From: Lichina pygmaea
Lineage: Eukaryota; Ascomycota; Lichinomycetes; Lichinales; Lichinaceae
Length of the DNA stretch: 64,000 nt
Direction: 5' to 3'
NCBI GenBank assembly: GCA_963422465.1
Contig: OY730173.1
Location: 1,736,001-1,800,000 of the forward strand
Part shown: piece by piece, positions 2,881-36,120 of the stretch
How positions within the stretch are numbered: position 1 is the first letter of the stretch
How the letters are laid out: every line of letters begins with the position of its first letter
The notes under the pieces: model-generated
Told to the model about the DNA's origin: nothing
Database searches by the model: none
Seen by the model: the letters and a program-made list of their open reading frames with translations, nothing else
Program-made: the position numbers and the translations under genes

Positions 2881-3382
2881 GAACTCTTCCCAGAACCACG
2901 CTGTTCAAGGACCATCACTTTTGGCAAAGACGGCATTTTGTCATATGTTCTGGAAAACAGCTGACATCCTGTCCCGACCCACCCAAACCTTAAGGTGAAA
3001 ACCCATCACCTTTGAGAATCACACCTGATTGTCAAACGTTGTGGTCTTGGGATCCACGATCTGTTTCTTCAACAACCAGCAATCCAGCCATAACCAGAGA
3101 GAGAGAGTCTCAGGATAAGAGGAATAGTTAGAGTCTGACTGACTCTGGAGCTAGCAGAGTCCTTGACTCAAGGAAAGTCTAGATAGGGGGTCTGGTCCCT
3201 AGTCTAGGCAAATACTTCTAGCTTTACCCAGAGCTTAGTTGGAATAAGCTGCCCAGGAAAGTCTAGTCTTGGGGTCTGGTCCCAGGACTAGATTATTACT
3301 GCTGGGAAACCAGGTGACTCCTCTCTCTCTGGCACTACTTCACAGACTGGAAACAGTTGACCTGTGCCAAGCAAGCTCCACC

Positions 3383-4777
3383 ATGGCACTAAAAAAGAAA
3401 AAACCCACTTTTTTAGAAACCAATCCCAGAGCACCACTAGCCACACCAGCTTCCAGTCTCTCTAACACTCAAGCTAGTTCTCCCACCACTGAAAGTACTA
3501 TACAGAAAGACTGGGAACTTCTTAACTCCTGGCTAAAAACCCAAACAGTTCCAGAACCAGTCAGAAAAAGCTGGGAGAACCTCAAGCAAAAACTCTCTGC
3601 AGAGCTGCAGACTAGCACTGTCCAGCCTCTACCCTCTGGCATTACCAACAAGATTATCCAGGAACTTGAAAACCTCAACAAACATCTAGATAGACAAGAG
3701 GCAAACCCATCTTATGCACAGGCAGCTGCAAAAACTTCCTCTGCTCAAATTCCACTAGCTTCCAGAATTCTCAAAGAGGTTCTGGTACACCCTGGGCACC
3801 AGACTCCAGACATGGCCAACAGAACCCATGTCCAGCTCTTCCAAGCCCTCCAAGACAGACTCCCAAGCTCTTATAACAAACAGATCAGGGCAGTGAGAAA
3901 ACTCCCATCAGGGGATATTCTTATTCACACAGAGAGCCAGAAAACTAAGCTTTTTCTGGAAAAGAATTCCTCCTGGACTGCAACTATCTTCAACACAAAG
4001 GCAATAGTCCAGCCCAAGAGATTCCCAGTTCTGGTTCATGGAGTCAGAACAGCAGATATCCAGCCAGAGAATCTGGAGGACACCTGTAAAAAAATCCAGA
4101 CTAGCAACCCTTCTCTTGGCAAACAGATCACTATTCTGAGAGTATATTAGTCCAAGAAATCCATAGCTCAAAAGAAACAGGTCACCTCTCTCCAACTGGA
4201 TCTCTCTACTCCCCAACAGGCCAATCTTCTTATTGAGAATGGACTAGTGCTGGGACACAGACTACATGAAGTGGAACCCTTCCTGGCAAATACAGTTATT
4301 GCACAATGCTTCAAGTGCTTTGGCTATAGCCACCAAGCTTATGCCTGCAGGAACAGAACTGCCTGTGGAGTATGTGGTGGACAACATGAGAGGAGAGCAT
4401 GCTCAATTCCTGAAAACTTGCTGAAACCAAAATGCTGCAATTGCCAGGGATCTCACCCAGCCTGGGCTAGCACATGCCCAGTACGCCAGGAAGCAGCCAA
4501 GAAAGCCAGGGAAGCTTGGATTTCATGCCCAGGGAAGTATGAGATCCCAATCTCTACATCTCTGACACCAGTACCCCAATCTCCAGCTACATCTTTCTCT
4601 TTCTCCCAGCCACTCCCAGGGGGGAAAAAACATAAAACAGCTGAGCCAACCAGAAGCTCAGAGAGAATCAGGGGAAGCTGTCCAGAAGTTCAAATTCTTG
4701 GGGCAAGATCAACAAATAATAAGGGAAAAGTATCAGCCAACCCTTTCAAGATCTTTGAAGATGAGATGTCTACATGA
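3383..4777 (+). pseudogene. LINE L-b ORF1 (nucleic-acid-binding protein), one internal stop
   Basis: ORF1 begins at the ATG at 3,383 (the ORF continues upstream in frame but L-a and L-c conserve this Met). It encodes about 464 codons with a Lys-rich N terminus, a Pro/Ser/Thr-rich linker and a basic middle region. Three CCHC-type zinc knuckles lie between about 4,300 and 4,500 (CFKCFGYSHQAYAC, CGVCGGQHERRAC, CCNCQGSHPAWASTC), as in R1/I/Tad-group ORF1 proteins that coat the element RNA. One in-frame TAG at 4,148-4,150 replaces the Trp codon still present in L-c (TGG to TAG, a CpA-to-TpA change on the other strand). The stop codon of ORF1 overlaps the ORF2 start as ATGA (4,774-4,777). Confidence 0.85.
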
Positions 4778-6459
4778 AAGACTCAAAGCTCACACTTCTC
4801 CAGTATAATGTGTAAAAAAGCCAATCAGTCCAAGAGCTACTTCTAGCAACCTCAGCTCTTCAAGAGGTGGATATTATTGCACTTCAAGAACTCTGGAAAA
4901 ACCCTCACCTGGAGACAAGCACCTCTACTGTTTTCTCTTCTTTTCTTCCTCTTTACTGTTCAGAGATTAGTAGAACACTTTTTCTTATTAACAAAAACCT
5001 GAAACTCTCTTCTCTTTATCCTACTTTCTGGAGTAAAGACTTTATTTCTCTTGAAATCTACTTAGAAAACTCTTCTACTTCTCTTTAGGTGTATAATCTT
5101 TACTTTACCCCATCAAGTCAAGAAAACTATACAGAGGCAACAGAAGCTCTTCTCTGTTTACTTCAAAATGCTTTACAAGTACAAGGACAACATATTCTTC
5201 TCACAGATTCAAACCTCCACCACCCAGACTGGTCAAAGAAAAGAAGACTGTACTCTGACACTGCAAACAAGTTCCAAGGTCTAATGAAAGATTTAAATCT
5301 GGATTTAGCTATTGCACCTTTTACTCCCACCAGAGCAAGATCTCTTTCAGAAAAACCATGTTCTGCAATTGATCTGTCTTTTATTTCTTCTTCTCTTTCT
5401 AACTCCCTGATTTTCTCTAAAGTGGCTCTCCAGTTCTTTCATGGGTCTGACCACAGACCTATACTAACTAGCCTGGACCTGGATCCTCCAAGGAAAACCT
5501 GGAAGCCAGAAAGGAACTGGAAGACACTGGACTCAAACCTTGCAAGAGTAGAGTGTGAGAAGCTACAGCTACCTTCCTGCTTTCAAGACAAAAATGAAGT
5601 GGATAAGTACTTGGAGTACCTGAACAACTTTCTCCAAGAAGTGGCAAGCAAATGTACACAGCTCCAGAAGCAATCTGGTCACTCAGTTCCCTGGTGGAAC
5701 CAAGACATCCAAAATAAGGTTAGAGAGGAAAGAAGAGTAAGAAGACAAGTTCTCAGAGGACAGGCATCCCAAGAAGACCTTGAGCAAGCAACTAAGAACA
5801 AGAAAAAAGCAGTCAGAGAGGGAAAGCAGACCACCTTCAGATAACAAGTCTATAAGCTAGCCAGTTTTTTAAAATTCTGGAAGCTTGCAAAGTGGGGAAA
5901 AACAAAAGCCAACAGGACTCCTGATCTTCCCCTGGTCCCAGACTTGGAAACTCAAGAAGGACTAGCTAAAACCTTTGAGGAGAAGACAAAAGCATTCTCA
6001 GCCCAGTTCTTCCCCAAAGCACTTGTTCCAGAACCAAGTACAGAGAGTTCCCAGAGTACTCCAGAGATCCAGCTTTCTCAGGAAGTTACTGCTGAAGAAG
6101 TGGAACAAATCCTGAACAAAAAGAAACCTTTCACAGCAGGGGGAAAAGATAAGCTGCCAAATGGATTTCTGAAAGCTCTGGGTTCCAAGTTCTGCCAAGC
6201 TATAGCTGTTCTCACATCAACATGCTAGAGACTGGAATACTTTCCAGAGAGGTTCAAGAATGCAAAGACAGTCTGTCTAAGAAAACCTGGTAAAGGATGC
6301 TATAACCAAGCTAAAGCCTGGCGCTCTATAGCTTTGCTAAACACAACTGGCAAGCTGATGGAAGCTATTACAGCAACCAGGCTAAGCAAGGTAGCAGAAG
6401 AAGCTAGACTTTTGCCAGAAATCTAGATGGGCTTCAGGAAAGGAAGATCAACTGAATCA
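4774..6459 (+). pseudogene. LINE L-b ORF2, first part: AP endonuclease and start of reverse transcriptase
   Basis: ORF2 starts with ATG 4,774 overlapping the ORF1 stop (ATGA), which suggests termination-reinitiation. The N terminus is an apurinic-like endonuclease: LTLLQYNVQ, then DIIALQE, the TDSNLHHPDW block and SDHRP near 5,440-5,460. The RT domain starts around 6,100 (KKKPFTAGGKDKLPNG; FRKGRSTE at the break). Compared with L-c, in-frame stops lie at 4,813-4,815, 5,086-5,088, 5,842-5,844, 6,226-6,228 and 6,424-6,426, with no frameshift. Four of the five are single CAA/CAG-to-TAA/TAG or TGG-to-TAG changes, as expected from RIP. Confidence 0.85.
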
Positions 6460-6933
6460 TGTTAAAGGCCAGTCCACGTTCACACAGAATGTGGGTGGTC
6501 CTGTCTTCGACCGAGGAGGGCAGGGACTCAATAGATGAATAGCAAGTGGGGTAACTCTCTTGCTATTGTCGCTCGTAATGTGCGTTCAGCCTGGAGAGCT
6601 AATCCCTCCGGGCTCTTTGGGGGTCTTTATACAGATGCCCCAAGGGGGGGGGTCTCCTCGAGGGGTATCATCCTTTTGCGTGGACGAGCTCCTCGCTTAG
6701 CTCCTGCTCGTCCACCGGACGAGCTCCTCGCTTAGCTCCTGCTCGTCCACCGGACGAGCTCCTCGCTTAGCTCCTGCTTGTCCACCGGACGAGCTCCTCG
6801 CTTAGCTCCTGCTCGTCCACCGGACGAGCTCCTCGCTTAGCTCTTGCTCGTCCACCGGATCGGTCGGATGTTGTTCCGCATGACTCACACCTCTCCCTCG
6901 CTTACCTGGGCTGTTCCGGCCTAGGCCTTAACA
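6460..6933 (-). repeat. Gypsy-A copy 1, 3' LTR
   Basis: 474 bp with TGTTAAAGG...CCTTAACA ends. On the minus strand a TATA box (TATAAAG) is at 6,631-6,625. The region 6,688-6,855 holds nearly five tandem 35-bp units, each with 8-bp inverted arms (GGACGAGC/GCTCGTCC). A run of nine G lies near 6,645. Confidence 0.93.
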
Positions 6934-6953
6934 CTATCCCCTCCCTCCAAGGG
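6934..6953 (-). other. Polypurine tract of Gypsy-A copy 1
   Basis: Directly inside the 3' LTR, the minus strand reads as a nearly pure purine run (core GGAGGGAGGGGA). It is the expected plus-strand-synthesis primer site. The same tract is found at 17,494 and 24,531 in the other copies, which fixes the orientation of all three. Confidence 0.8.
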
Positions 6954-6994
6954 TTCTGTCCCCAGATCCTTTTTGTTCCTGCTCCTCTTTTGCC

Positions 6995-7567
6995 ATGAAC
7001 CAAAGCCAGACAACTCGAACTTGTTGTCGCGGTTTTCTCTCTTGTCGTGTTGGCAAAATGGGCAAGGAATCAAAAATCGCATGCGGTGCTTGTCGTCGCG
7101 ACCACGCCAAGTGTGTCGTGAGTTCTGCATCGTCTTTTTGTTGTCGGTGCATCGAGAAGGGTTGTCGCTGCAACCTTCATCTCTCGGAATCAGAATGGAA
7201 GAAGATGGAGCTTGAGCGTGAGCAGCTCAAGGCTCAGCTGCGGGAGACCGATGACCAACTGTCAAAACTGCTTCCCCGGCAGATCCGCCTCCGCCGGCAG
7301 CTGGGTCGTCTCTCACAGAAGGAGGCCGATGCCATCCGTCGTGAGCTGTCAGCCATCGAGGATCAAGAGTCCCTCGATGCTCAGGAACAAGAGGCCCTCC
7401 GCATTATCCGCGAACAGGAGGCCTGTCAAGCTGCTGCTCCACCGTCCTTTGAGGACGTCTTCTCTTCGGAGGCTTTGGCTTCTCTCGAGCTGTTATCTCC
7501 GTCGGACCTGGTCGCTGCGGATTTGCTCGGTGGTAATCCACCAGTTTCCGGTTCATCGCAGAGCTGA
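6995..7567 (+). CDS. Antisense ORF of Gypsy-A copy 1: Zn(II)2Cys6-like domain plus coiled coil, 190 aa
   Basis: An open frame of 190 codons on the strand opposite to gag-pol, lying between the polypurine tract and the end of pol and overlapping the chromodomain tail by about 160 bp. Residues 30-59 have cysteines 30, 33, 40, 49, 52 and 59, which is C-x2-C-x6-C-x8-C-x2-C-x6-C, the exact consensus of the fungal Gal4-type binuclear zinc cluster. Basic residues follow the second cysteine (CRRDHAKC). Residues about 65-150 are Glu/Gln/Arg/Leu-rich and should form a coiled coil; the C terminus is acidic and Leu/Ser-rich. What is seen: the frame, the Cys pattern, and its presence in three copies. Inferred: a DNA-binding or regulatory protein made from an antisense transcript. 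It might instead be a zinc-binding structural protein. I know no named family for it. Confidence 0.72.
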   Translation: MNQSQTTRTCCRGFLSCRVGKMGKESKIACGACRRDHAKCVVSSASSFCCRCIEKGCRCNLHLSESEWKKMELEREQLKAQLRETDDQLSKLLPRQIRLRRQLGRLSQKEADAIRRELSAIEDQESLDAQEQEALRIIREQEACQAAAPPSFEDVFSSEALASLELLSPSDLVAADLLGGNPPVSGSSQS

Positions 7568-10500
7568 AGTTCTCGGTTGGTTCCCACGAATTCTCCTCTT
7601 CGTCAAATCCTAACCACTTCACCAGGTACTTGATTTTCCGTCCGTTTCTCCGACTGTCTAGGATCCTTTCGACATCGTACTCTTCTTCATCGTCCTCGAA
7701 GTGCCATTCTGTTTCGATTGCTGCGTCGCTGGGTGCTGGCTCGAGCAGCGAGACATGGAATACTCGGTGTATCCGTGCCTTTTTTGGCAGTCTCAGTCGG
7801 TAGTTGACTTCTCCAGTGCGCTTCTCAATCTCAAACAGTCCGATTCGTACATGATCCAGCTTTTTGCTCGGTCGCTTCGAGCGCAGGTTTTTTGTTGACA
7901 AATAGACCTTATCCCCCCTCTCCAGGGTTGGTCCCTTCAACCTTTTGCTGTTTAGGCGGTGGCTTGTTGTCTTTTGTGCAGATTCAATTGCAGTCTTCAT
8001 TTCCTCATGCATAGCAGTGAGTTTTTCGACGTTCGTTGAAGTGCCACTTCCAGCCACCATCGCTTCCCAGCGGGGGTTTCTGCCGTAGTTCGCAAAGAAC
8101 GGCGTCATGCCCGTCACGCTGTGTTGCTGATCATTGTACGCAAACTGAGCCATTGGTAGCAGTTCTACCCAATCGTCCTGTCGGTGGTTGACGTAGTGGC
8201 GTAGGTACTGTTCCATCGTCTGGTTTGTTCTCTCAGTTTGTCCGTCTGTTTGTGGATGGTAGGCAGTAGACATCCTCGTGTCTATCCCTAGCTGTCTTGT
8301 CCACGTGTTCCAGAATTTCGAGGTGAAGAGTTTGTCTCGATCCGAGATAATCTTCGTGGGTAGCCCTCGCTGGCTAACCAATTCTTTGAGCAGGACATTG
8401 GCGAGTTCGCTCGCTGTTCCTGTCTCTCGCCACGGGATCAGGTGAGCGTATTTGGTGAGTTTGTCAACAACCACCAAGATACTGTCATATTTCACCTTTG
8501 TTACCGGGTCCTCTGACCTCGGCAGCTTCACCACAAAATCCATTGTGATAGTATCCCAAGCCGCTTCTGGGAGGTCCATTTGTTGACTCTCTCCATAGGG
8601 TTTGTGGCGTGACGGTTTGTTTTTCGCACACTCTTCGCAGTTGCGAATAAATTCCGTCACTTTCCGCTTCATTCCGTTGAAGTGGTAACATCTCCGGATC
8701 TTTTCCAGGGTCTTGTCTCGCCCAGGATGTCCGTGTAGAGGTCCATCGTGATGTTGTCGAATCACGTCCTCTTGTGCACTCTCTGGCACTTCTTCCTTGT
8801 TCGTGGCCGCAACGTTGTGGCCTAGGGTCAGGAGTGCACCCATTTCTTCAGTTTTCGCTAACTGAGGTTGAGCATAGACCAGAGTTTGTCCTTTTGTCAC
8901 TAGGATTGGGCGCTCTTCTGTCGTGTCGTCTGTCGTCATATCAGGCCGTCTGCTAAGCGTGTCCGCTCGTGCGTTTTCTGATCCTTTTCGATAGAAGATC
9001 TGGAAGTCGTATGAAGCTAAAAGCTCCGCCCATCGGACTTGTCGTCTGTTTAGCTTCTTTGTCGTCGTGAAGTAAGCCAAATTCTTGTGGTCTGAGTACA
9101 CGTCCACTGTGTACTTTGCTCCTTCCAGGTAAGGTCTCCACTCCTGGAATGCGTCGACAATCGCTAACAACTCCTTGTCATGAACATCGTACCTGAGTTC
9201 TGGGCCAGAGAACTTTCTCGATCAGTATGCGACAGGGTGTAGGCGGTTTTCGGCGTCTGGTTGACACAAGCAAGATCCAAGTGCTTGGTCCGAGGCATCT
9301 GTCTCCATGATGATCTGCTGTCCGGGATCAAATGATGCCAGTATGGGTGCGGAGGTGAACTTCTCTTTCAGCTCCTGGAACGCTCTCTCTTGGCTGTTCC
9401 CCCATGTGAAGGTTTCTTCCTTCTTTGTTAGTTCAGTCAAGGGTGCTGCTGTCCTCAAGTACTCCTTGATGAATCGTCGGTAGAAGTTCGCAAATCCCAG
9501 GAAGGATTGGACTTCTTTGAGGTTTTTGGGTGTTGGCCAGTCTCGTACTGCCGTGATCTTTGTATCGTCCATACGGATTCCTTCCGTCGTCAGGATCGAT
9601 CCCAAATATTCCACTTCTTTCACGTGGAAGACGCTCTTATCAAGGCGTAACCTTATTCCTGCTTCTTGGAGCGCATGTAGGATCTTCTTGACATGCTGTT
9701 TGTGCTCCTCCAGGGTTCCATTGGTGTAAACCAAGACATCGTCGATATAAGCGGTAACAAATATATCCAGGTATTGTCGGAGGATGGCGTTAATAAGTGA
9801 TTGGAACATCGCCGGTGCATTCGTAAGGCCGAATGGCATAACAGTATACTCGTAATGCCCGTACCTCGTACGAAAGGCTGTCTTCCATTCTTCGCCATCT
9901 TTCATCCTAACCAGGTTGAAAGCGCCTCGGATGTCGAATTTGGTAAACCACTTGGCTCCTTGGATTCGGTCCTGGATTTCCGATATTAACGGTAGCGGGT
10001 AGCGATTCTTAATCGTGATCGCATTGAGCTGCCGGTAGTCAACACACAGTCGTAATTTGCTGTCTTTCTTTGGCACAAACAATATCGGGTATCCGGCCGG
10101 TGATGTTGAAGGTCTTATGAACCCTTTCGCTAGGTTCTCGTCCAGGTAATCTCTTAGGGCCTCAAGCTCCTTTGCTGATAGAGCGTAAATAGGGCCATGT
10201 GTGGGTTTCTTTCCGTCTTCCAGCGGAATTTCGTGATCCCACTCTTGGTGTTCTGGTAGCGTCGCGACCGCTTCCTCACCAAACATCTCCTGGTAGTCTT
10301 TATACTCACTTGGCAGCTGCGGTGCCTGAGTCTCGCCCACGGCGTCATGCGTGGTGCAAAGTTGATGGTTTCGGGGCTTCATCCAAGCCACATAGGCTCG
10401 CCCTCGCCGGTGGTGCTTCTTCCACCCTGCATATAAGATCTCTTTGATTCTCACTTTCTCTGGCTCTGCTCGAGTTGCCAGACTCCTCTTCGGAAAGACT

Positions 10501-11037
10501 AGGTGCCTTCTTTTCCAGTCGATCCTTGGGTTTTGACTTTCCAACCACGGAAGACCCAATATAACTTCATGTGGTATCTGGACCAAGTCGAATTCTTCTG
10601 ATCCGATTGTCGTACCGTCGACACACAGTCGTAGGTTCTTGGTCTCCTTCGTCACTCGTCCTTGGTTGTTGGAGAGTGGTGTCCCGTCCACTACCGTTAG
10701 TTGGTATGGATTCCTCTTTTCCTGAGTCGGGATCTTGTGCTTCCTGGCGAAACTTTCTGACATGAAGTTGCCAGTAGCTCCAGAGTTGATCATGGCATTT
10801 GTCAGATGCCCGTTGACTCTCATCTTGATGCGAAAATGCGGACTGCAGGCTGTCGTGTCGAGGCTCTGCTCGACCCCTTCTCTCCGGAGTGTTGTCTTGC
10901 CTGCTCTTCCGACTCCGGATTTGAAGAGCACTGCTAGTTTTTTGAACAACCAAGGCCCTGAGCCTGGCGTTCTGCCGCGTGTCTTTCGCATTTTTCAGTG
11001 AAGCATAGCTCCCATGCGTCTTCTCCGCAATCATCAT
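7404..11037 (-). pseudogene. Gypsy-A copy 1 pol region (protease, RT, RNase H, integrase, chromodomain)
   Basis: Long minus-strand reading frames cover the whole pol. Protease is near 10,800-10,900. RT has the YIDD box near 9,740-9,760 and the 'FDIRGAFN' block. RNase H follows, then an HHCC integrase zinc domain near 8,600-8,750 and the integrase core. A GPY/F-like module (RIGLFEI...) and a chromodomain near 7,600-7,700 (VKWLG...SWEP) end it. This order and the chromodomain place the family among Ty3/Gypsy chromoviruses. About one or two breaks interrupt the frame, so it is treated as a fossil, though a young one. Confidence 0.9.
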
Positions 11038-11314
11038 GTTCTTTCCCTTGCTGGCTTAGCTGGTGCTTGATGCTCCAGGCTTTCTTGTGGTATTCTGGGC
11101 CAGGGAAGTGGTGCCTTCTCCTTTTCTCTAGGAGATGTTCCTTGCAGTGGTGGTCCTCACATCCTTTCCAATAAGGATGTCTGCAGGCTGGTGTCGTAGC
11201 CTGGTGATAGTCCACTTGCGCTGCGATGTCTCGGGGCTGTGAGATGCTGATGGTGTTGTCCACCCATCGCGTCACTCTTGCTTCGCCGTCCTCCGACAAG
11301 GTCGCATCCTGTCG

Positions 11315-12478
11315 TCAGAGTAGTGGTGTCTCGGGAACTGGTGGCATGCCGGTTATGTCAATCTCGTAGTCTGTTGTGTTGAATTCGGAGATCAGGTCAT
11401 CCTCCCAATGAACCTTATCGATCTGGTCTTGGATTGTGTGCAGGTCCTCCAGTGACCTCTGCAGATCATTCTCCAGTCTTTCGATGTGCTGTCTGAGATT
11501 GTCCTCCTGTCCGAGGAGTGTTGCTTCTGACCGGTTCATGGGTAGCGTGCCTCTGGGAGCCCTCGGTGGCTCCTGAATGCCCTTGCCTTTCCAGGCACCG
11601 GTGGCATTCAACTGCTTACCCTTGCCTTCTTTCTTCTTCTTGCTTTGGCAGTTGGCTGCGAGGTGTCCTACCTTCTGGCAATTGTAACACTTCCGTGTTT
11701 CTTTCTTCTTTGTTGCCTGTGGTGTTGTTGCATCGATCTCCATGGGTGTCAAGCCGTACTTGTCTTGTGCTGGCGCTGTCTTTTTGCCCCATGGCCTTGC
11801 ATGCTTGCCTCGCTTCTCGAGTTCTCGTTCAAACTGTCGGTCGTCGATGTGTACCGCTGTGTCAATCATATCCTCGAGGTCGGTGGGTCGATCTCCTCGT
11901 GCGATGTCATCCTTGACTCGTTCCTTGAGAGCTTGGTAGAATAGTGCCGTCAAGGCACTGTCTCCCCATTGCGTCCTCACTGACAACTGTTGGAACTTCG
12001 CCGCGAAGTCTGATGCTGACCCTGTCTGCCGTAGTGCTTGGAGCTTTCGTTCCGCATCTTGTTCTTCATCAATGACCCCAAAGGTCTTCTTCATCTGGGT
12101 CTTGAAGGTAGAGAATCTCCCAATGATCTGCCGTGTCGTGGTCTCCATGCTAGAGGGATCTTCCTTGTTGTCGAGGAAGTCTCGTAGGTAGACATTAAAC
12201 CAGGCAAATGTCGGTCCGTCCAGGTAGGAAGCTGCGAACAGCACCTTCTCCTGTTCCGTAGGGAATTGTGCGGCGTTGAATCCGTAGTAAAGCTCAAGCT
12301 GAGAGAAGAATAATTCCAATCCCCCTCGTGATCCATCGTACCTCTTCGGCGTACCTACCTTCAACGGCTTTGGAGGTAAGGTGAGGGTGGTAGGGACAGG
12401 TGGTTCCTGGGCTTGCGCCTGAGGCGCAGCCCGAGGTTGGCCTGCCTGCGAAGGGGTAGGGCTGCGTGGATCTGCCAT
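11315..12478 (-). CDS. Gypsy-A copy 1 gag, 387 aa
   Basis: An open minus-strand frame beginning 38 bp inside the 5' LTR. It has a Pro/Ala-rich N terminus, a capsid-like region with the 'LELFFSQLELYYGF' and 'FKTQMKKTFG' blocks of fungal Gypsy Gag, and one CCHC zinc knuckle (CYNCQKVGHLAANC). The C-terminal part is Lys-rich followed by a heptad-like segment. A separate Cys/His-rich block typical of fungal Gypsy polyproteins follows at about 10,950-11,290, before protease. Confidence 0.88.
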   Translation of the reverse strand: MADPRSPTPSQAGQPRAAPQAQAQEPPVPTTLTLPPKPLKVGTPKRYDGSRGGLELFFSQLELYYGFNAAQFPTEQEKVLFAASYLDGPTFAWFNVYLRDFLDNKEDPSSMETTTRQIIGRFSTFKTQMKKTFGVIDEEQDAERKLQALRQTGSASDFAAKFQQLSVRTQWGDSALTALFYQALKERVKDDIARGDRPTDLEDMIDTAVHIDDRQFERELEKRGKHARPWGKKTAPAQDKYGLTPMEIDATTPQATKKKETRKCYNCQKVGHLAANCQSKKKKEGKGKQLNATGAWKGKGIQEPPRAPRGTLPMNRSEATLLGQEDNLRQHIERLENDLQRSLEDLHTIQDQIDKVHWEDDLISEFNTTDYEIDITGMPPVPETPLL

Positions 12479-12516
12479 CGTATTGAGCCGGTGTCCTATG
12501 TGTTAGAGGCTGAAAC

Positions 12517-12990
12517 TGTTAAAGGCCAGTCCACGTTCACACAGAATGTGGGTGGTCCTGTCTTCGACCGAGGAGGGCAGGGACTCAATAGATGAATAGC
12601 AAGTGGGGTAACTCTCTTGCTATTGTCGCTCGTAATGTGTGTTCAGCCTGGAGAGCTAATCCCTCCGGGCTCTTTGGGGGTCTTTATACAGATGCCCCAA
12701 GGGGGGGGGTCTCCTCGAGGGGTATCATCCTTTTGCGTGGACGAGCTCCTCGCTTAGCTCCTGCTCGTCCACCGGACGAGCTCCTTGCTTAGCTCCTGCT
12801 CGTCCACCGGACGAGCTCCTCGCTTAGCTCCTGCTCGTCCACCGGACGAGCTCCTCGCTTAGCTCCTGCTCGTCCACCGGACGAGCTCCTCGCTTAGCTC
12901 TTGCTCGTCCACCGGATCGGTCGGATGTTGTTCCGCATGACTCACACCTCTCCCTCGCTTACCTGGGCTGTTCCGGCCTAGGCCTTAACA
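12517..12990 (-). repeat. Gypsy-A copy 1, 5' LTR
   Basis: 474 bp, nearly identical to the LTR at 6,460-6,933, including the tandem 35-bp hairpin units. I could not recognise a tRNA primer-binding site in the 38 bp between this LTR and gag. Confidence 0.93.
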
Positions 12991-13886: not shown

Positions 13887-14494
13887 TGTTATGACCCAGG
13901 GGATGGGAGCCACTCATTTATAGGCAATCAGGCCACGGGCCAGGCAAGAGGACACCATGGAAGTCAAGTGACCAACCAACAAGGGGTCACGTGACTGTCA
14001 AGACACACACAGAAGTCTTGACACAGCATGCATGAAGCATCAAGACAATCTCACCAGTCTTGACACAGGATGCATGAAGCATCAAGACAATCTCACCAGT
14101 CTTGACGCAGGATGCATGAAGCATCAAGACAATCTCACCAGTCTCAACACAGGATGCATGAAGCATCAAGACAATCTCACCAGTCTCAACGCAGGGTGTA
14201 TAACATGGTGGGACTGTCAAGACAATCTCACCTGTCTTGACAGGCCAGCACTATATAGTCTGGCGATAGTTCCTTTATGGAACAATTGTCTTCAACTCAT
14301 GTTGTGATCCAGACAACTAGATCTACTTCAATACAATCCTTTTGTACAAAGCTATTGATCAGGTGTCACCACCACCATGTTCCACCAAACCCCTTCGCAC
14401 TTCTTGACACTCCTCTCCTGTGAGAACCAACCCACCTTCCACCTCTCACCCTAATCCTATACTCGGATAGGACAGTACAGTACAGACTGCAACA
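13887..14494 (+). repeat. Gypsy-B copy 1, 5' LTR
   Basis: 608 bp with TGTTATGACCC...TGCAACA ends. Positions 14,020-14,190 contain four tandem units of 42 bp, each holding the inverted arms TCAAGAC/GTCTTGA and a GATGCAT.ATGCATC-like palindrome. A TATATAG TATA box lies near 14,251. It is inserted in L-b ORF2. Confidence 0.9.
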
Positions 14495-14512
14495 CTTTGA
14501 AGACCCTCAAGG

Positions 14513-15340
14513 ATGAGTACCTCAGGAGCAACCAACCCCAACTTCCCAGATGGAAAAATTAGCGTTGCCAAGCCAGACCTGTTCTACAGTGAAAGGAACA
14601 AGGTCAACAACTGGCTCATGCAACTCCAAGTCTACTTTCAATTCCAACCAGAGACAAAGCTGCCTAAGGAAAAGTGGCCCCTCTTCGCAACCACTTACAT
14701 GAGAGGTAATGCTTATTGATAGATCAAGCCCTACGTCAACAAACATCTCTCAGGAAACAGAGACCACGACAGCACAACAGAATAGATGACAAAATGGACA
14801 TAATTCAAGGACAAGATCAAAAGGATCCTTGGACTATCTAACAAAGACAAAGTGGCTATACGAATGATCTAGCACATCAAGCAACAACACTCAGCCGCAG
14901 AGTACACCACACAGTTCAAACAATACTCAGTACTGACTGACTGGGACAATAATGCTCTGATAGTCATGTACTGACATAGACTCAAGGAAAACGTGAAGGA
15001 TGAAATCACCTTCAACAGACAAGTGGTCAACACACTGGATGAACTCATCGCACAAGCAATCAACATTGATAACAAACTATTTGAGTGAGTGATGGAGAAA
15101 CACCATGACGGAGGATACAGCCACCCCGCATGGCATGTGAGCAACCACTACAAGCCACCTAACAAGGCACCGCCACATGACCCATATAGCTATACACTCA
15201 TGGAACTGGATGCAGTCCACCACAAGGGAAGGTTCACAAAGGGAAGGAACAACAAAAAGGGGAAAGCACTGAAGTGCTATGCCTGTGGCAAGCTAGGCCA
15301 CATGGTGAAAGACTGTTGTTCAAAGAACAAGTTGCACTGA
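14513..15340 (+). pseudogene. Gypsy-B copy 1 gag
   Basis: Gag reading starting MSTSGATNPNFPDGK, with a capsid-like part and a CCHC knuckle (CYACGKLGHMVKDC) near 15,270-15,320. Broken; the copy at 36,121 is the better-preserved relative. Confidence 0.8.
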
Positions 15341-17102
15341 CAGCAACTTAATACACTCAACAGAGACTGGAATGTCATCAAGCCAGAGGACCCACCAGGA
15401 GAGGCTCAGCTATCCCTTGAACAATAGGACAACTACAATCAGACATTGGAAGCAGCCCACCAACTGGCAACATCAGGAGGTAAGGACCTACCAGAACCAA
15501 CAGGTCAGGACAAGGGACAGGAGCTCTTAACCACCTCTGATGGGGACTGAGACAAACCTGTGTCTATCAAAGAAGAAATACCACAAGGAAGCTATGCTTA
15601 CAGCATGGACCCACAAAATCTACGGCACAGCGAACTACAGTGGAGGTTTTGCACGAAGCACTACTACACCTACCACGAACAACTACAAAGGTACAGAGGA
15701 CATTCACCCTACCACGCCACCTGCCACAAGCATTGGGTCAATTGCGAGAAGGATGCGTGTGAGATCTATCTTTGGGACAAACATCAACACACCGCATTCC
15801 CCGGGCACACACATGATTGGCATGAACACCTCATGTTCCTACAGCAAGGCAACAACCACAACTGCTATGTCAACAATTGGCAGTACTGCCTCAAGCCTGG
15901 ATGTGACAAGCATCAGCAAGACAAATTCATGAACAGATTCCTCAGGACTGATGGGAATGGCTGGACCTATTGCCCAGTCAGTGGAAAGACACTTCAATCA
16001 GGAAAAGACTGAACTCCCTTGTCAAGGGGTGACATTGGGAGCTCAACAACATGACCCCTAGCAACGCAAAGCACCTGTGATTGCCTGTGTCACTACACAC
16101 CAACACGCCAGTACAGACATACGCACTTGTTGACTCTGGAGCCAGTGGAAACTACATCTCAAGACAACTTTACAACACCCTCGGCACTGGAAGGAGACGC
16201 AAGCAGCAGCCCTATCAGCTCATGATGGCAAATGGACAGACAGAGCTAGTCTGCCATGAGACACAGCCAATGGAAATAGTTACTGGACACTATGCTGAAA
16301 GGATCCACCTTGATATTTGTTAAAGGCCAGTCCATGTTCACACAGAATGTGGGTGGTCCTGTCTTCGACCGAGGAGGGCAGGGACTCAATAGATGAATAG
16401 CAAGTGGGGTAACTCTCTTGCTATTGTCGCTTGTAATGTGTGTTCAGCCTGGAGAGCTAATCCCTCCGGGCTCTTTGGGGGTCTTTATACAGATGCCCCA
16501 GGGGGGGGGTCTCCTTGAGGGGTATCATCCTTTTGCGTGGACGAGCTCCTCGCTTAGCTCCTGCTCGTCCACCGGACAAGCTCCTCGCTTAGCTCTTGCT
16601 CGTCCACCGGACGAGCTCCTCGCTTAGCTCTTGCTTGTCCACCGGATCGGTCGGATGTTGTTCTGCATGACTAACACCTCTCCCTCACTTACCTGGGCTG
16701 TTCCGGCCTAGGCCTTAACAATATTGTCGAGTTGGCCACTCAGGATATCTATTTGGGGATGCCTTGGCTAAAGAAGCACAACCCAGTTGTTAACTGGAAG
16801 ACAGGAGTACTCATGTTTAGGAACTGCACTAACAACACAGCTCAGACCTGTTACCAGCCGCAGAAGGCATGGACAGATGAGGGAAGAAGTCCTCAGTGGA
16901 ACCTCACTGACAGAAAGGACAACTCTCAAGAGAAGAGGTCTGCCTTGACAGGCACACCCTAGAACCAGGTGGCCAAACAGTCAGAGATGAAGAGAGAGGA
17001 AGTTGTTAACCCTCTGGAGATCCCTGAAGAGTACTGACCTGGGTATAATAACCTCTTTCAGGAAGAGACAACGACAGCAGTGTTACCTAAGCACCAACCT
17101 TG
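15341..17102 (+). pseudogene. Gypsy-B copy 1: Cys/His block and protease region
   Basis: After gag comes a His/Cys-rich block (about 15,560-16,010, FCTKHYYT.../CHKHWVNCEKD) that fungal Gypsy polyproteins carry before protease. The protease follows, with the active-site block [13 protein letters not shown] at about 16,115-16,150. The solo Gypsy-A LTR (16,318-16,720) sits inside protease and Gypsy-A copy 2 begins at 17,103. Confidence 0.78.
16318..16720 (-). repeat. Solo Gypsy-A LTR
   Basis: 403 bp with TGTTAAAGG...CCTTAACA ends, flanked by a perfect target duplication ATATT (16,313-16,317 and 16,721-16,725). It has about three 35-bp hairpin units. An LTR alone with matching duplications is the product of LTR-LTR recombination that removed the internal part of a former full insertion. 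Confidence 0.93.
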
Positions 17103-17493
17103 TGTTAAAGGCCAGTCCACGTTCACACAGAATGTGGGTGGTCCTGTCTTTGACTGAGGAGAGCAGGGACTCAATAGATGAATAGCAAGTGGGGTAACTC
17201 TCTTGCTATTGTCGCTCGTAATGTGTGTTCAGCCTGGAGAGCTATTCTCTCCGGCTATCTGGGTTCTTATATACAGGAGTCTGAGGGGGGGGGGTCCTCC
17301 CAAGGGGTATCAGCTTTCCGCGTGGACAAGCTGGACAAGCTGGTTACACGTCGTCCACCTCGTCCACCGTGGACGAGCTGGACAAGCTGGTTACACATCA
17401 TCCACCTTGTCCACCAGGTCGGGTGAACGTTGTTCCGTGTACCTCTGTACACTCGCTTCGGTCAGCTCAGCTGTTCCGGCCTGGGCCTTAACA
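17103..17493 (-). repeat. Gypsy-A copy 2, 3' LTR (subtype 2)
   Basis: 391 bp. Its central repeat differs from copies 1 and 3: units built on GTGGAC...GTCCAC arms with AAGCTGGACAAGCTGG between, at about 17,320-17,420. The ends and the outer 150 bp match the other Gypsy-A LTRs. Confidence 0.92.
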
Positions 17494-17545
17494 CCATCCC
17501 CTCCCTCCAAAGGTTCTGTCCCCAGATCCTCTCACTTCTCTTACC

Positions 17546-18076
17546 ATGACCCGGACATCTCGTGTTAATCATCGTGGAGTCCTCAGTTCTTGTGTTGGCA
17601 AGATGGGCAAGGTATCCAAAGTTTCATGCAGCGCATGTCGTCGTGACTGTGCCAAGTGTGTCGTCAGTTCAGAGTCCACATTTTGTGGTCGGTGCCTTGA
17701 GAAGAGTCGCTGTTGCGATCTCCATCTTGCGGAGTCAGAGTGGGAGAAGATGGAGCTTGAGCGCACTCAGCTCAAGGCTCAACTGAAGGAGATCGAGGAG
17801 CAGGAGTCTGTTCTCCTTCCTCGCAAACTTTGTCTCCGTCGTCAGTTGGGTGTGTTGTCCAAGAAGGAGGGTGAGGCCATCAAGTGTGAGCTTGCTGTGA
17901 TCAAGGATCAGGAGGATCTCGAGCAGGAGGCTACACGTGTGGAGTCCCCACCGCCTTTGGAGGACTTCTTCTCTTCGGAGGCTTTGGCTTCTCTCAAGTC
18001 TTTGTCTCCATCGATCCTGGCTTCTGCGGGTTTTGTCAGTGGAAACTCCGCAGTTTCTTGTTTGTCACAGGGCTGA
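17546..18076 (+). CDS. Antisense ORF of Gypsy-A copy 2: Zn(II)2Cys6-like domain plus coiled coil, 176 aa
   Basis: An open frame of 176 codons at the same place and orientation as 6,995-7,567. Cysteines 28, 31, 38, 47, 50 and 57 keep the spacing C-x2-C-x6-C-x8-C-x2-C-x6-C exactly, though the protein differs at many residues. It is open while the pol on the other strand of the same element is broken many times. A hand alignment of about 70 codons with copy 1 shows roughly 26 third-, 14 first- and 6 second-position differences. That pattern indicates selection on this antisense frame. The C-terminal block (SSEALASL...LSPS) is also conserved. Confidence 0.72.
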   Translation: MTRTSRVNHRGVLSSCVGKMGKVSKVSCSACRRDCAKCVVSSESTFCGRCLEKSRCCDLHLAESEWEKMELERTQLKAQLKEIEEQESVLLPRKLCLRRQLGVLSKKEGEAIKCELAVIKDQEDLEQEATRVESPPPLEDFFSSEALASLKSLSPSILASAGFVSGNSAVSCLSQG

Positions 18077-21000
18077 AGTTCTTGGTGGGTTCCCACGAGT
18101 TCTCCCCATTGTCATACCCTAACCACTTGACCAGGTATTCGATTTTCCGTCCACTTCTCCAGCTGTCTAGGATCCTTTCAACATCATACTCTTCTTTGTT
18201 GTCCTCGAAGTGCCATTCTGTTTTGATTGCTGTGTCGCTGGGTGCTGGCTCAAGCAGTGAGACATGGAATACTCGGTGTATCCGTGCCTTTTTTGGCAGT
18301 CTCAGTCGGTAGTTGACTTCTCCAGTGCGCTTCTCAATCTCAAACAGTCCGATTCGTACATGATCCAGCTTTTTGCTTGGTCGCTTTGAGCGCAGGTTTT
18401 TTGTTGACAAATAGACCTTATCCCCCCTCTCCAGGGTTGGTCCCTTCAACCTTTTGCTGTTTAGGCAGTGGCTTGTTGTTTTTTGTGCAGATTCAATTGC
18501 AGTCTTCATTTCCTCATGCATAGCAGTGAGTTTTTCGACGTTTGTTGAAGTGCCACTTCCAGCCGCCATCGCTTCCCAGCGGGGGTTTCTGCCGTAGTTC
18601 GCAAAGAACGGTGTCATGCCTGTCACGCTGTGTTGCTGATCGTTGTACGCAAACTGAGCCATTGGTAGCAGTTCTACCCAATCGTCCTGTCGGTGGTTGA
18701 CGTAGTGGCGTAGGTACTGTTCCATCGTCTGGTTTGTTCTCTCAGTTTGTCTGTCTGTTTGTGGATGGTAGGCAGTAGACATCCTTGTGTCTATCCCTAG
18801 CTGTCTTGTCCACGTGTTCCAGAATTTTGAGGTGAAGAGTTTGTCTTGATCTGAGATAATCTTCGTGGGTAGCCCTCACTGGCTAACCAATTCTTTGAGC
18901 AGGACATTGGCGAGTTCGCTCGCTGTTCCTGTCTCTCGCCACAGGATCAGGTGAGTGTATTTGGTGAGTTTGTCAACAACCACCAAGATACTGTCATATT
19001 TCACCTTTGTTACTGGGTCCTCTGACCTTGGCAGCTTCACCACAAAATCCATTGTGATGGTATCCCAAGCCACTTTTGGGAGGTCTATTTGTTGACTCTC
19101 TCCATAGGGTTTGTGGCGTGACAGTTTGTTTTTCGCACACTCTTCGCAGTTGCGAATAAATTCTGTCACTTTCCACTTCATTCCGTTGAAGTGGTAACAT
19201 CTCCGGATCTTTTCCAGAGTCTTGTCTTGCCCAGGATGTCTGTGTAGAGGTCCATCATGATGTTGTCGAATCACGTCCTCTTGTGCGCTCTCTGGCACTT
19301 CTTCCTTGTTTGTGGCCGCAACGTTGTGGCCTAGGGTCAGGAGTGCACCTATTTCTTCAGTTTTCACTAACTGAGGTTGAGCATAGACCAGAGTTTGTCC
19401 TTTTGTCATCAGGATTGGGCACTCTTCTGTCATGTCGTCTGTCGTCATATCAGGCCGCCTGCTAAGCGTGTCCGCTCGTGCGTTTTCTGATCCTTTTCGA
19501 TAGAAGATCTGGAAGTCGTATGAAGCTAAAAGCTCTGCCCATCAGACTTGTCGTCTGTTTAGCTTCTTTGTCGTCGTGAAGTAAGCCAAATTCTTGTGGT
19601 CTGAGTACACGTCCACTGTGTACTTTACTCCTTCCAGGTAAGGTCTCCACTCCTGGAATGTGTCGACAATCGCTAACAACTCCTTGTCGTGAACATTGTA
19701 CCTGAGTTCTGGGCCAGAGAACTTTCTTGATCAGTATGCGACAGGGTGTAGGCAGTTTTCGGTGTCTGGTTGACACAAGCAAGATCCAAGTGCTTGGTCT
19801 GAGGCATCTGTCTCCATGATGATCTGCCGTCTGGGATCAAACAATGCCAGTATGGGTGCGGAGGTGAACTTCTCTTTCAGCTCCTGGAACGCTCTCTCTT
19901 GGCTGTTCCCCCATGTGAAGGTTTCTTCCTTCTTTGTTAGTTCAGTCAAGGGTGCTGCTGTCCTTGAGTACTTCTTGATGAATCGTCAGTAGAAGTTCGC
20001 AAATCCCAGGAAGGATTGGACTTCTTTGAGGTTTTTGGGTGTTGGCCAGTCTTGTACTACCGTGATCTTTGTATCGTCCATACGGATTCCTTCTGTCGTC
20101 AGGATCAACCCTAAATATTCCACTTCTTTCACGTGGAAGACGCTCTTATCAAGGCGTAACCTTATTCCTGCTTCTTGGAGTGCATGTAGGATCTTCTTGA
20201 CATGCTGTCTGTGCTCCTCCAGGGTTCCATTGGTGTAAACCAAGACATCGTCGATATAAGCAGTAACAAATATATCCAGGTATTGTCGGAGGATGGCGTT
20301 AATGAGTGATTGGAACATCACCGGTGTATTCGTAAGGCTGAATGGCATAACAGTATACTTGTAATGCCCGTACCTTGTACGAAAGGCTGTCTTCCATTCT
20401 TCGCCATCTTTCATCCTAACCAGGTTGAAAGCGCCTCGGATGTCAAACTTGGTAAACCACTTGGCTCCTTGGATTCAGTCCTGGATTTCCGATATTAACA
20501 GTAGCGGGTAGTGATTCTTAATCGTGATTGTATTAAGCTGCCGGTAGTCGACACACAGTCGTAATTTGCTGTCCTTCTTTGGCACAAACAATATCAGGTA
20601 TCCGGCTGGTGATGTTGAAAGTCTTATGAACCCTTTCGCTAGGTTCTCGTCCAGGTAATCTCTTAAGGCCTCAAGCTCCTTTGCTGATAGAGTGTAAATA
20701 GGGCTGTGTGTGGGTTTCTTTCTGTCTTCCAGCGGAATTTCGTGATCCCACTCTTGGTGTTCTGGTAGCGTCGCGACCACTTCCTCACCAAACATCTCCT
20801 GGTAGTCTTTATACTCACTTGGCAGCTGTGGTGCCTGAGTCTCACCCACGGCGTCATGCGTGGTGCAAAGTTGATGGTTTCAGGGCTTCATCCAAGCCAC
20901 ATAGGCTCGCCCTCGCCGGTGGTGCTTCTTCCACCCTGCATATAAGATCTCTTTGATTCTCACTTTCTCTGGCTCTGCTCAAGTTGCCAGACTCCTCTTC

Positions 21001-23025
21001 AGAAAGACTAGGTGCCTTCTTTTCCAGTCGATCCTTGGGTTTTGACTTTCCAACCACGGAAGACCCAATATAACTTTGTGTGGTATCTGGACTAAGTTGA
21101 ATTCTTCTGATCTGATTGTCGTACTGTCGACACACAGTCGTAGGTTCTTAGTCTCCTTTGTCACTTGTCCTTGGTTGTTGGAGAGTGGTGTCCCGTCCAC
21201 TACTGTTAGTTGGTATGGATTCCTCTTTTCCTGAGTCGGGATCTTGTGCTTCCTGGCAAAACTTTCTGACATGAAGTTGCCAATAGCTCCAGAGTCAATC
21301 ATGGCATTCATCAGATGCCTGTTGACTCTCATCCTGATGTGAAAATGTGGACTGCAGGCTGTCACGTCAAGGCTCTGCTCAACCCCTTCTCTCCGGAGTG
21401 TTGTCTTGCCTGCTCTTCTGACTCCAGATTTGAAGAGCACTGCTAGTTTTTTGAACAACCAAGGCCCTGAGCCTGGTGTTCTGCCACGTGTCTTTCGCAT
21501 TTTTCGGTGAAGCATAGCTCCCATGCGTCTTCTCTGCAGTCATCGTGTTCTTTCCCTTGCTGGCTTAGCTGGTGCTTGATGCTCCAGGCTTTCTTGTGGT
21601 ATTCTGGGCCAGGGAAGTGGTGCCTTCTCCTTTTCTCTAGGAGATGTTCCTTGCAGTGGTGGCCCTCACATCCTTTCCAATAAGGATGTCCGCAGGCTGG
21701 TGTCGTAGCCTGGTGAAGGTCCACTTGCACTGCGATGTCTCGGGGCTGTGAGATGCTGATGGTGTCATCCACCCATCGTGTCACTCTTGCTTCGCTGTCC
21801 TCCGACAAGGTCGCATCCTGTTGTCAGAGTAGTGGTGTCTCGGGAACTGGTGGCATGCCGGTTATATCAATCTTGTAGTCTGTTGTGTTGAATTCGGAGA
21901 TCAGGTCATCCTCTCAATAAACCTTATCGATCTGGTCTTGGGTTGTGTGCAGGTCCTCCAGTGACCTCTGCAGATCATTCTCCAGTTTTTTGATGTGCTG
22001 TCTGAGATTGTCCTCCTGTCTGAGGAGTGTTGCTTCTGACCGGTTCATGGGTAGTGTGCCTCTGGGAGCCCTCGGTGGCTCCTGAATGCCCTTGCCTTTC
22101 CAGGCACCAGTGGCATTCAACTGCTTACCCTTGCCTTCCTTCTTCTTCTTGCTTTGGCAGTTGGCTGCGAGGTGTCCTACCTTCTGGCAATTGTAACACT
22201 TCCATGTTTCTTTCTTCTTTGTTGCCTGTGGTGTTGTTGCATCAATCTCCATGGGTGTCAAGCCGTACTTGTCTTGTGCTGGCGCTGTCTTTTTGCCCTA
22301 TGGCCTTGCATGCTTGCCTCACTTCTCAAGTTCTTGTTCGAACTGTCGGTTGTCGATGTGTACTGCTGTGTCAATCATATCCTTGAGGTCGGTAGGTCAG
22401 TCTCCTCGTGCGATGTCATCCTTGACTTGTTCCTTGAGAGCTTGGTAGAATAGTGCTGTCAAGGCACTGTCTCCCCATTGTGTCCTCACTGACAACTGTT
22501 GGAACTTCGCCGCAAAGTCTGATGCTGACCCTGTCTGCTGTAGTGCTTGGAGCTTTTGTTCCGCATCTTGTTCTTCATCAATGACCCCGAAGGTCTTCTT
22601 CATCTGGGTCTTGAAGGTAGAGAATCTCCCAATGATCTGCTGTGTTGTGGTCTCCATGCTAGAGGGATCTTCCTTGTTGTCGAGGAAGTCTTGTAGGTAG
22701 ACATTGAACCAGGCAAATGTCAGTCCGTCCAGGTAGGAAGCTGCGAACAGCACCTTCTCCTGTTCTGTAGGGAATTGTGCAGTGTTGAATCTGTAGTAAA
22801 GCTCAAGCTGAGAGAAGAATAATTCCAATCCCCCTTGTGATCCATTGTACCTCTTCGGCGTACCTACCTTCAACGGCTTTGGAGGTAAGGTGAGGGTGGT
22901 AGGGACAGGTGGTTCCTGGGCTTGTGCCTGAGGCGCAGCCCAAGCTTGGCCTGCCTGCGAAGAGGTAGGGCTGCGTGGATCTGCCATCGTATTGAGCTGG
23001 TGTCCTATGTGTTAGAGGCTGAAAC

Positions 23026-23416
23026 TGTTAAAGGCCAGTCCACGTTCACACAGAATGTGGGTGGTCCTGTCTTCGACCGAGAAGGGCAGGGACTCAATAG
23101 ATGAATAGCAAGTGGGGTAACTCTCTTGCTATTGTCGCTCGTAATGTGCGTTCAGCCTGGAGAGCTATTCTCTCCGGCTATCTGGGTTCTTATATACAGG
23201 AGCCTGAGGGGGGGGGGTCCTCCCGAGGGGTATCAGCTTTCCACGTGGACAAGCTGGACAAGCTGGTTACACGTCGTCCACCTTGTCCACCGTGGACGAG
23301 CTGGACAAGCTGGTTACACATCGTCCACCTTGTCCACCAGGTCAGGTGAACGTTGTTCCGTGTACCTCTGTACACTCACTTCGGTCGGCTCAGCCATTCC
23401 GGCCTGGGCCTTAACA
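23026..23416 (-). repeat. Gypsy-A copy 2, 5' LTR (subtype 2)
   Basis: 391 bp, same subtype as 17,103-17,493. The pair differs at about 13 positions, mostly C/T and G/A. Confidence 0.92.
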
Positions 23417-24127
23417 CCTTGGGATCATGAGATCAAGTTGCAACCAGAGACAGAGCCAGGATTTGGACTAATTTACTAGTTATCAGAGAAAAAGCTCCAA
23501 GTACTTCGCGAGTACCTGGAGGAAAACCTGAAAAAGAGTTTCATTTGAGAATCTCAATCACCAGCAGAATACCCGATACTATTTGCACTAAAGAAAGACA
23601 GAAGTCTTCAACTTTGTGTGGATTACAGGAAACTCAATGACATTACCATCAAGAACTGATATCTGTTGCCAAATGTGAACAAATTGCGAGACAGGATCAG
23701 CCAAGCTACAATCTTTACCAAGCTGGACTTGAAAGGAGCATACAACCTGATACACATGAAAGAAGGAGAAGAATGGAAGACAGCCTTCAGAACCTGATAC
23801 AGACACTACAAGTATCTGGTTATGCTATTCAGACTCACGAACACACCAGCAACATGTCAAGCATTGATCAACAACATCATCAGAGCACACCTGGACCAAA
23901 CAGCTATCACCTACCTGGACAACATTCTTGTCTACTCAAACACGCAACAGGAACATACCAAACATGTGAAGGATGTTCTACAATGCCTACAACAGGCAGG
24001 GCTCAAGCTCAACCCAAAGAAATGTGAGTTCAACAAACTGGAAGTTGAATTCCTTGGATATGTTATAGAGATCAAAGAGATCAAGATTGACCCTGAGAAA
24101 ATCAAAGTGATTCAGCAATGGCCAACA
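23417..24127 (+). pseudogene. Gypsy-B copy 1: reverse transcriptase region
   Basis: Between Gypsy-A copies 2 and 3 the Gypsy-B RT resumes: the PWDHEI start, LCVDYRKLN-like block, the TYLDNILVYSN box near 23,905-23,945, and the LNPKKCEF block near 24,010. The reading is cut at 24,127 by Gypsy-A copy 3 and continues at 30,552. Broken. Confidence 0.82.
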
Positions 24128-24530
24128 TGTTAAAGGCCAGTCCACGTTCACACAGAATGTGGGTGGTCCTGTCTTCGACCGAGGAGGGCAGGGACTCAAT
24201 AGATGAATAGCAAGTGGGGTAACTCTCTTGCTATTGTCGCTCGTAATGTGCGTTCAGCCTGGAGAGCTAATCTCTCCGGGCTCTTTGGGGGTCTTTATAC
24301 AGATGCCCCAGGGGGGGGGTCTCCTTGAGGGGTATCATCCTTTTGCGTGGACAAGCTCCTCGCTTAGCTCCTGCTCATCCACCGGACAAGCTCCTCACTT
24401 AGCTCCTGCTCGTCCACCGGACAAGCTCCTCGCTTAGCTCTTGCTCGTCCACCAGATCAGTCGGATGTTGTTCCGCATGACTAACACCTCTCCCTCACTT
24501 ACCTGGGCTGTTCCGGCCTAGGCCTTAACA
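24128..24530 (-). repeat. Gypsy-A copy 3, 3' LTR
   Basis: 403 bp, subtype 1, with about three 35-bp hairpin units. A polypurine tract follows at 24,531-24,550 on the minus strand. Confidence 0.92.
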
Positions 24531-36102: not shown

Positions 36103-36120
36103 CTTTGAAGACTCTCAAGG

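Follow-up and report, generated by a model that had tools for sequence, protein, structure and literature searches.

The 64,000-nt window of the Lichina pygmaea genome analysed here (contig OY730173.1, positions 1,736,001 to 1,800,000) contains three full-length retrotransposons of one family, Gypsy-A, and all three carry an additional ORF between pol and the 3' LTR, on the strand opposite to gag-pol. This antisense ORF is a real gene under purifying selection at the amino-acid level. The best explanation of its function, to which we give a probability of roughly 0.55, is that it encodes a dimeric, element-borne DNA-binding regulator of Zn2Cys6 type, the likely target of which is the U3 region of the LTRs of its own element.

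Gypsy-A elements and the place of the antisense ORF

Copy 1 of Gypsy-A (6460-12990, minus strand) is full length, with LTRs of 474 bp each, and is flanked on both sides by the 5-bp target duplication TGATT. Its 3' LTR (6460-6933, minus strand) has a U3 region with five 35-bp units, which bear the sequence CGGTGGACRAG, as well as inverted arms such as GGACGAGC/GCTCGTCC; the 5' LTR occupies positions 12517-12990 of the same strand. The gag and pol frames of this copy (7404-12502, minus strand) comprise gag (11315-12502), a protease-RT ORF (9222-10994), and an RNase H-integrase-chromodomain ORF (7404-9221). The two pol ORFs share one frame and are separated by a single TGA (9222-9224), while gag is in a different frame, about 320 nt away from pol. 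Copy 2 (17103-23416, minus strand; LTRs 17103-17493 and 23026-23416; target duplication CAAGG) and copy 3 (24128-30551, minus strand; LTRs 24128-24530 and 30114-30551; target duplication TGTTG) are also full length, and the U3 repeat unit of copy 2 differs from that of copy 1. The pol domains identified with the use of Pfam are RVT_1, RT_RNaseH, Integrase_H2C2, rve, and Chromo. Gypsy-A is thus a Ty3/Gypsy chromovirus, as defined by its reverse transcriptase, RNase H, integrase, chromodomain, LTRs, and 5-bp target site duplications. The LTRs of copy 3 are of unequal length (403 vs. 438 bp), and the difference corresponds to one 35-bp U3 unit, which indicates that the array of repeats is altered in the course of insertion or later.

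The antisense ORF of copy 1 (6995-7567, plus strand) begins 61 nt away from the 3' LTR (inner edge at 6933), and, as the minus-strand pol ends at 7404, its final 164 nt overlap the pol tail. The counterpart in copy 2 (17546-18076, plus strand) has 58-63% amino acid identity with it, depending on how gaps are counted. An earlier reading of this DNA, made from the sequence only, had described the ORF as open in copies 1 and 2, and this is the case; in copy 3 (24592-25164, plus strand) it is interrupted by one stop, a TAG at codon 68 (24793-24795), with the six cysteines retained. The same reading had assumed a protein of 190 aa. There are indeed 190 codons from the first ATG of copy 1, but this ATG is missing from copy 2, whereas the methionine at residue 22 (position 7058) is conserved in all three copies, in a context with A at position -3 and G at position +4. 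As residues 1-22 appear unconstrained and Met22 is kept in each copy, a start at 7058 is suggested, and the protein probably has 169 aa.

Purifying selection on the antisense frame

In the comparison of copies 1 and 2 over the 127 codons that do not overlap pol, dN was 0.256 and dS 1.064 (dN/dS 0.24). The ratio varied along the protein: it was 0.93 for residues 1-22, 0.13 for residues 23-62, which comprise the cysteine-rich stretch, 0.19 for residues 63-136, which belong to the coil region, and 0.44 for the pol-overlapping tail. Each of the five other frames contains stops in both copies, while that of the antisense ORF has none in either. In 5000 trials of neutral simulation, the 113 observed substitutions were assigned to random positions of copy 1. 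None of these trials gave a dN/dS as low as that observed; the ORF stayed open in 20 of them, the six cysteines were retained in 55, and both occurred in one, which excludes a chance ORF as far as such simulations reach. The comparison of copies 1 and 3 gave no frame-specific signal (0.35-0.47 for the antisense frame and 0.29-0.55 for three other frames), as can be expected of copies that are recent and partly decaying.

The six-cysteine head and the layout of the protein

The six-cysteine stretch of copy 1 (7082-7171, plus strand) has the spacing C-x2-C-x6-C-x8-C-x2-C-x6-C, and this spacing, reported previously from the sequence, is exact in all three copies, in which it starts at 7082, 17627, and 24679. 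These are the only stop-free matches in the six frames of the window, and a loosening of the loop to 5-16 residues adds none. The pattern was absent from 60 random 64-kb sequences with matched dinucleotide composition and from 20,000 random 636-nt sequences of local composition. The basic motif CRRDxAKC, which had been ascribed to all three copies, is present in copies 1 and 2, but copy 3 reads CCRDHAKC. The cysteine pattern of the Zn(II)2Cys6 family (PF00172) is C-x2-C-x6-C-x5-12-C-x2-C-x6-8-C. In this form, it is present in all three copies of the antisense protein, while a stricter, PROSITE-like pattern is matched by two of the three, copy 2 being the exception. The antisense protein is also devoid of the loop proline, which we take to be usual for this family.

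The order of parts in the antisense protein is a six-cysteine head (residues 23-62, net charge +5), a long helix, and an acidic tail. The coil postulated earlier to follow the cysteines (7187-7435, plus strand) was predicted by AlphaFold as a single long helix of residues 65-147 with pLDDT of 75-98; we regard it as a putative dimerising coil, the heptad periodicity of which is weak (P 0.047). The C-terminal tail (7436-7567, plus strand) is acidic and hydrophobic, with a net charge of -6 (-3 in copy 2), and overlaps the end of pol on the opposite strand. Fungal Zn(II)2Cys6 factors, such as Gal4, Ppr1, Put3, Leu3, and Hap1, have a cluster, a coil behind it, and an acidic tail. The antisense protein resembles this general family layout in the cysteine spacing, the basic residues around the second and third cysteine, the coil, and the acidic tail; in the alignment, basic residues lie between the second and third cysteine, as in Gal4-type heads. 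It differs from these factors in being encoded by a retroelement in antisense, in the lack of a Pfam match, and in its size of 169-190 aa, which leaves no room for a middle regulatory domain.

Searches with sequence profiles gave marginal results. The proposed check against Pfam Zn_clus yielded no match at E up to 10 for any of the copies 1-3, although five of five known zinc-cluster domains used as positive controls matched. Of the proposed Gal4-type layout, a coding gene with a Gal4-like order of parts is well supported, whereas the match to the Pfam profile is missing. In a phmmer search of the PDB, the best sequence match was the coiled coil of BAP29 (E 0.007), and Leu3 and Put3 appeared at E of about 1 over the right residues. 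With a profile of the copies as a query, Leu3 and Put3 were lost, and Pho7 (E 6.6) was the sole zinc-cluster match left. In hhalign comparisons with five known DNA-binding domains, the six cysteines were aligned (P 4.9e-4, probability 32%). A profile of known domains gave copies 1, 2, and 3 scores of 13.4, 7.9, and 11.4 bits, which were matched by 5, 25, and 19 per 1000 shuffles, respectively, with the cysteines held fixed.

Structure prediction, likewise proposed as a check, gave a mixed answer. The AlphaFold models of the zinc part are of low confidence (pLDDT of about 45 in the first model and about 57 in a model of residues 22-75). However, when the latter was compared by Foldseek with a library of 350,542 PDB chains, all 14 matches at E up to 10 were Zn2Cys6 domains, from nine entries and six proteins (Pho7, Leu3, Gal4, Put3, Hap1, and Ppr1). 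With the best E of 0.21, TM-scores over the query of 0.40-0.48, and a scoring scheme that also uses sequence, this result is an agreement of weak matches, none of which is individually strong. Taken as a prediction, the assignment of the six-cysteine head to the Zn2Cys6 binuclear clusters seems to us highly probable.

An antisense reading at the same place in Gypsy-B

When stops were allowed, one further six-cysteine match was found in the window, at 41316 on the minus strand (C-x2-C-x6-C-x11-C-x2-C-x6-C), while the pattern, with stops allowed, had no match in 150 random 64-kb sequences. This match begins a decayed antisense reading (40900-41316, minus strand; stop at 40900-40902) located between the end of the pol chromodomain and the 3' LTR of an element of a second family, Gypsy-B. 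The element is on the plus strand, with pol at about 37.7-41.0 kb and the 3' LTR from 41445; three stops interrupt its antisense reading, one within the loop and the others within the coil. The chromodomain end of Gypsy-B pol (40848-40958, plus strand; Pfam Chromo, E 3.4e-15) overlaps the end of the antisense reading, and the antisense stop codon lies past the W-E-P codons of the chromodomain by 1 nt in Gypsy-B and by about 10 nt in Gypsy-A copy 1.

Beyond the cysteines, no significant likeness of the Gypsy-B reading to the Gypsy-A antisense protein was detected by hhalign (E 0.038, probability 1.4%). The score of this comparison was reached by 7 of 200 full shuffles and by 51 of 200 shuffles with the cysteines fixed, and the profile of known domains gave at most 0.6 bits per stretch of Gypsy-B. 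As the sequences are unlike beyond the cysteines, the homology of the two antisense genes is argued from their place, strand, cysteine spacing, and chromodomain overlap. The reading is present in the one Gypsy-B copy that extends this far; the other copy ends before the region in question.

The Gypsy-B copy with the antisense reading (35502-42000) has LTRs that are about 94.6% identical, and its 3' LTR contains a 42-nt tandem repeat of 3.5 units (41570-41715). The other copy (13887-31415) is split by nested Gypsy-A sequences, namely a solo LTR (16318-16720) and copies 2 and 3; blast identified its pieces at 14212-16317, 16721-17102, 23416-24127, and 30552-31415.

Joint divergence of U3 and the antisense gene

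Across the antisense gene, about 30% of the positions distinguish copy 2 from copies 1 and 3, while from 7818 to the 5' LTR its identity with them is 94-98% in 200-nt blocks. A similar pattern concerns the LTR: between copies 2 and 1, with gaps left out, identity is 68-71% in U3, between the LTR start and the TATA box, and 92-94% from the TATA box through R and U5. The block of low identity extends from U3 through the antisense gene to the pol tail near 7650-7690, with an interruption of about 40 nt next to the LTR, which contains the polypurine tract (36 of 39 nt identical). Synonymous divergence is 1.06 for the antisense gene, but only 0.075-0.094 for gag-pol. We rejected fast positive selection as the source of this island of divergence, because dS is also about 1 there, which points instead to a block exchanged with a distant subfamily.

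The U3 units, of 35 bp in copy 1 and about 47 bp in copy 2, have a common core, GGTGGACRAG, with an inverted CTYGTCC. With at most one mismatch allowed, CGGTGGACRAG occurs 27 times in the window, vs. 2.1 expected, and 26 of these matches fall in Gypsy-A LTRs, but the matches are not independent events, as tandem units and related LTRs inflate the count. Enrichment of CGG half-sites in U3 was considered and rejected: the CGG triplets number 15, 7, and 8 in copies 1, 2, and 3, respectively, which in each case is below the expectation (17.7, 11.4, and 10.6). A bacterial promoter scan of the region 6400-7700 is uninformative for a eukaryote.

We infer from these comparisons that U3 and the antisense gene were exchanged as one module. 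In the retroviral replication cycle, as known, strand transfer takes place at R, and it is this cycle on which our proposal is based: a strand transfer at R together with a switch in the end of pol, while two co-packaged RNAs are reverse transcribed, would produce exactly such a block. The joint divergence is a single contrast (copy 2 vs. copies 1 and 3) and, after one exchange, would follow simply from the adjacency of U3 and the gene. That U3 and the gene diverged jointly makes the action of the antisense protein on the LTR repeats, suggested in the sequence-only reading, more plausible, but the lack of an excess of CGG triplets in U3 does not favour it.

Proposed function and alternative explanations

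The antisense ORF would be an accessory gene of the retrotransposon, transcribed in antisense to gag-pol from the 3' LTR side. Its product would consist of an N-terminal, zinc-binding binuclear head of Zn2Cys6 type, followed by a long helix for dimerisation and by a tail that is acidic and hydrophobic, and the dimer would most likely bind to sites in U3 of the LTRs of its own element. U3 immediately precedes the antisense gene and, in the LTR at the opposite end, drives gag-pol, so that an action on both U3 and the gene itself is the simplest arrangement. By binding to U3, the protein, probably an activator, would set how strongly the family is transcribed and would also control its own gene. 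Activation is favoured over repression (in our judgement by about 60 to 40) because of the acidic tail. A further, rather speculative and on the whole unlikely possibility is that fungal Gypsy elements carry a module similar to phage immunity modules, in which an antisense regulator of Zn2Cys6 type is matched to the U3 repeats that it binds, that the two are exchanged as a pair between subfamilies by strand switching in reverse transcription, and that this pair sets which relatives in one genome are switched on or off.

The same DNA-binding protein might act on host genes or chromatin, and not on its own U3, as a nuclear accessory factor of Zn2Cys6 type involved in integration-site choice, stress response, or counter-silencing. 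Selection on the coding sequence and the structural matches are compatible with any DNA target, U3 shows no excess of CGG triplets, and a review of antisense ORFs suggests nuclear roles and a part in retrotransposition (PMC7264820). The location of the gene beside U3, its joint divergence with U3, and the conservation of the U3 core motif in both subfamilies argue for a target within the element, and we consider a host target somewhat unlikely. That the head is a zinc-binding domain of another fold, for instance that of a nucleocapsid-like factor which binds RNA or proteins and merely resembles Zn2Cys6, would agree with the lack of a Pfam Zn_clus match, the weak model of the zinc part, and the marginal similarity beyond the cysteines. 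Such a fold appears improbable in view of the uniform Zn2Cys6 identity of the Foldseek matches, the order of zinc stretch, helix, and acidic tail, and the basic residues between the second and third cysteine.

Two other explanations dispense with a function of the protein as a regulator encoded by a long-standing gene of the element. Antisense RNA could be the functional product, acting by dsRNA or siRNA control of the element, with the protein as a by-product; roles of this kind are discussed for LTR elements in the same review (PMC7264820). A function of RNA alone does not predict selection on amino acids, and the excess of dS (1.06) over dN (0.26), which is most pronounced in the zinc stretch, makes this explanation quite improbable. 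The ORF could also have arisen by chance or be the remnant of a host gene for a transcription factor, captured by a single element in the recent past, as transduction of host genes by retroelements is described as possible (PMC7264820). The presence of the ORF in all three copies, the decayed reading at the same place in a second family, and the divergence of the subfamilies there to dS of about 1 under constraint render a recent capture or a chance origin very improbable. The regulator of Zn2Cys6 type acting on its own U3 is, in our opinion, the reading that best accommodates these observations.

Relation to known antisense genes and search for relatives

ORFs in antisense orientation at this place of LTR elements have been known for years in plants and fungi, and a Gal4-type head would make the function of the Gypsy-A gene directly testable. 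In fungi, the antisense gene brtn of Boty-like Gypsy elements of Botrytis cinerea (Zhao et al. 2011, as cited in PMC8365987, PMC7264820, PMC4227169, and PMC5987419) is also located between pol and the 3' LTR of a Gypsy element with a chromodomain in pol; the excerpts of these papers on brtn do not mention a zinc-cluster domain. Plant antisense ORFs designated aORF-3R, described in Grande (gene23), RIRE2, Retand, and PvRetro13, have the identical place and strand, and the product of the Grande gene is localised in the nucleus, with Grande having its own antisense promoter; a zinc cluster is not mentioned in the pertinent excerpts (PMC7264820). In the case of HTLV-1, the minus-strand gene HBZ encodes a regulator of LTR transcription of DNA-binding type, which is a bZIP protein of a retrovirus with no zinc cluster, and hence is analogous at most (PMC6950816, PMC3391691, PMC4776189).

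The claim of the sequence-only reading that the ORF represents a new kind of element-borne regulator needs to be narrowed accordingly: antisense genes at this place are already known (brtn and aORF-3R; PMC7264820), while the assignment of a Zn2Cys6 domain is apparently undescribed. The gene of Gypsy-A thus belongs to a known positional kind of antisense genes, and its domain assignment is apparently new to the literature. No Zn2Cys6 antisense gene of a Gypsy element was found in the titles and abstract beginnings among the matches listed in our search, which covered little of the subscription literature. In the excerpts of one further paper (PMC7014384), the relevant terms occur in unrelated places.

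A search of viral contigs for relatives returned nothing with any of five queries (P0001, pol, the two-copy alignment A2, A4, and the integrase alignment A6), and alignment A2 found none in genome contigs. The integrase alignment A6 identified three loci in genome contigs (L001-L003), in records labelled as bacteria, and the six-cysteine pattern was found in none of the three, even with loosened spacing and stops allowed. Two of the loci, L001 and L002, are Gypsy integrase contigs in records labelled as Acidobacteriota and Bradyrhizobium and, judged by eye, probably represent eukaryotic contamination; from their integrase and chromodomain ends we presume that the contaminant is a plant. As the contigs are short and L001 and L002 plant-like, this search outside the window neither supports nor refutes the presence of the gene in other elements.

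If the antisense protein binds and switches its own LTR, fungal retroelements would encode a regulator of their own, in analogy to HBZ of HTLV-1. Many small proteins with a zinc cluster and a coil are annotated in fungal genomes. Were the proposed function true, many unplaced small zinc-cluster proteins among these annotations may be products of element genes and not of host genes.

Other features of the window

The Gypsy elements are flanked by LINE-like elements (3248-6228 and 31594-35504), in which a CCHC-containing ORF1 and an endonuclease/RT-like ORF2 were recognized by eye. A Gypsy fragment at 1-2400 appears by eye to belong to a third family; the translation of its plus strand contains no six-cysteine match, which is not a test of absence, as the 3' end of the fragment is short. 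The region 46563-56296 is a gene-bearing flank of higher GC content, which encodes exportin-T and a product of the Sir2 family and contains a weak SET match, below the cut-off. A cation transporter gene at 50642-52113 was assigned by eye only.
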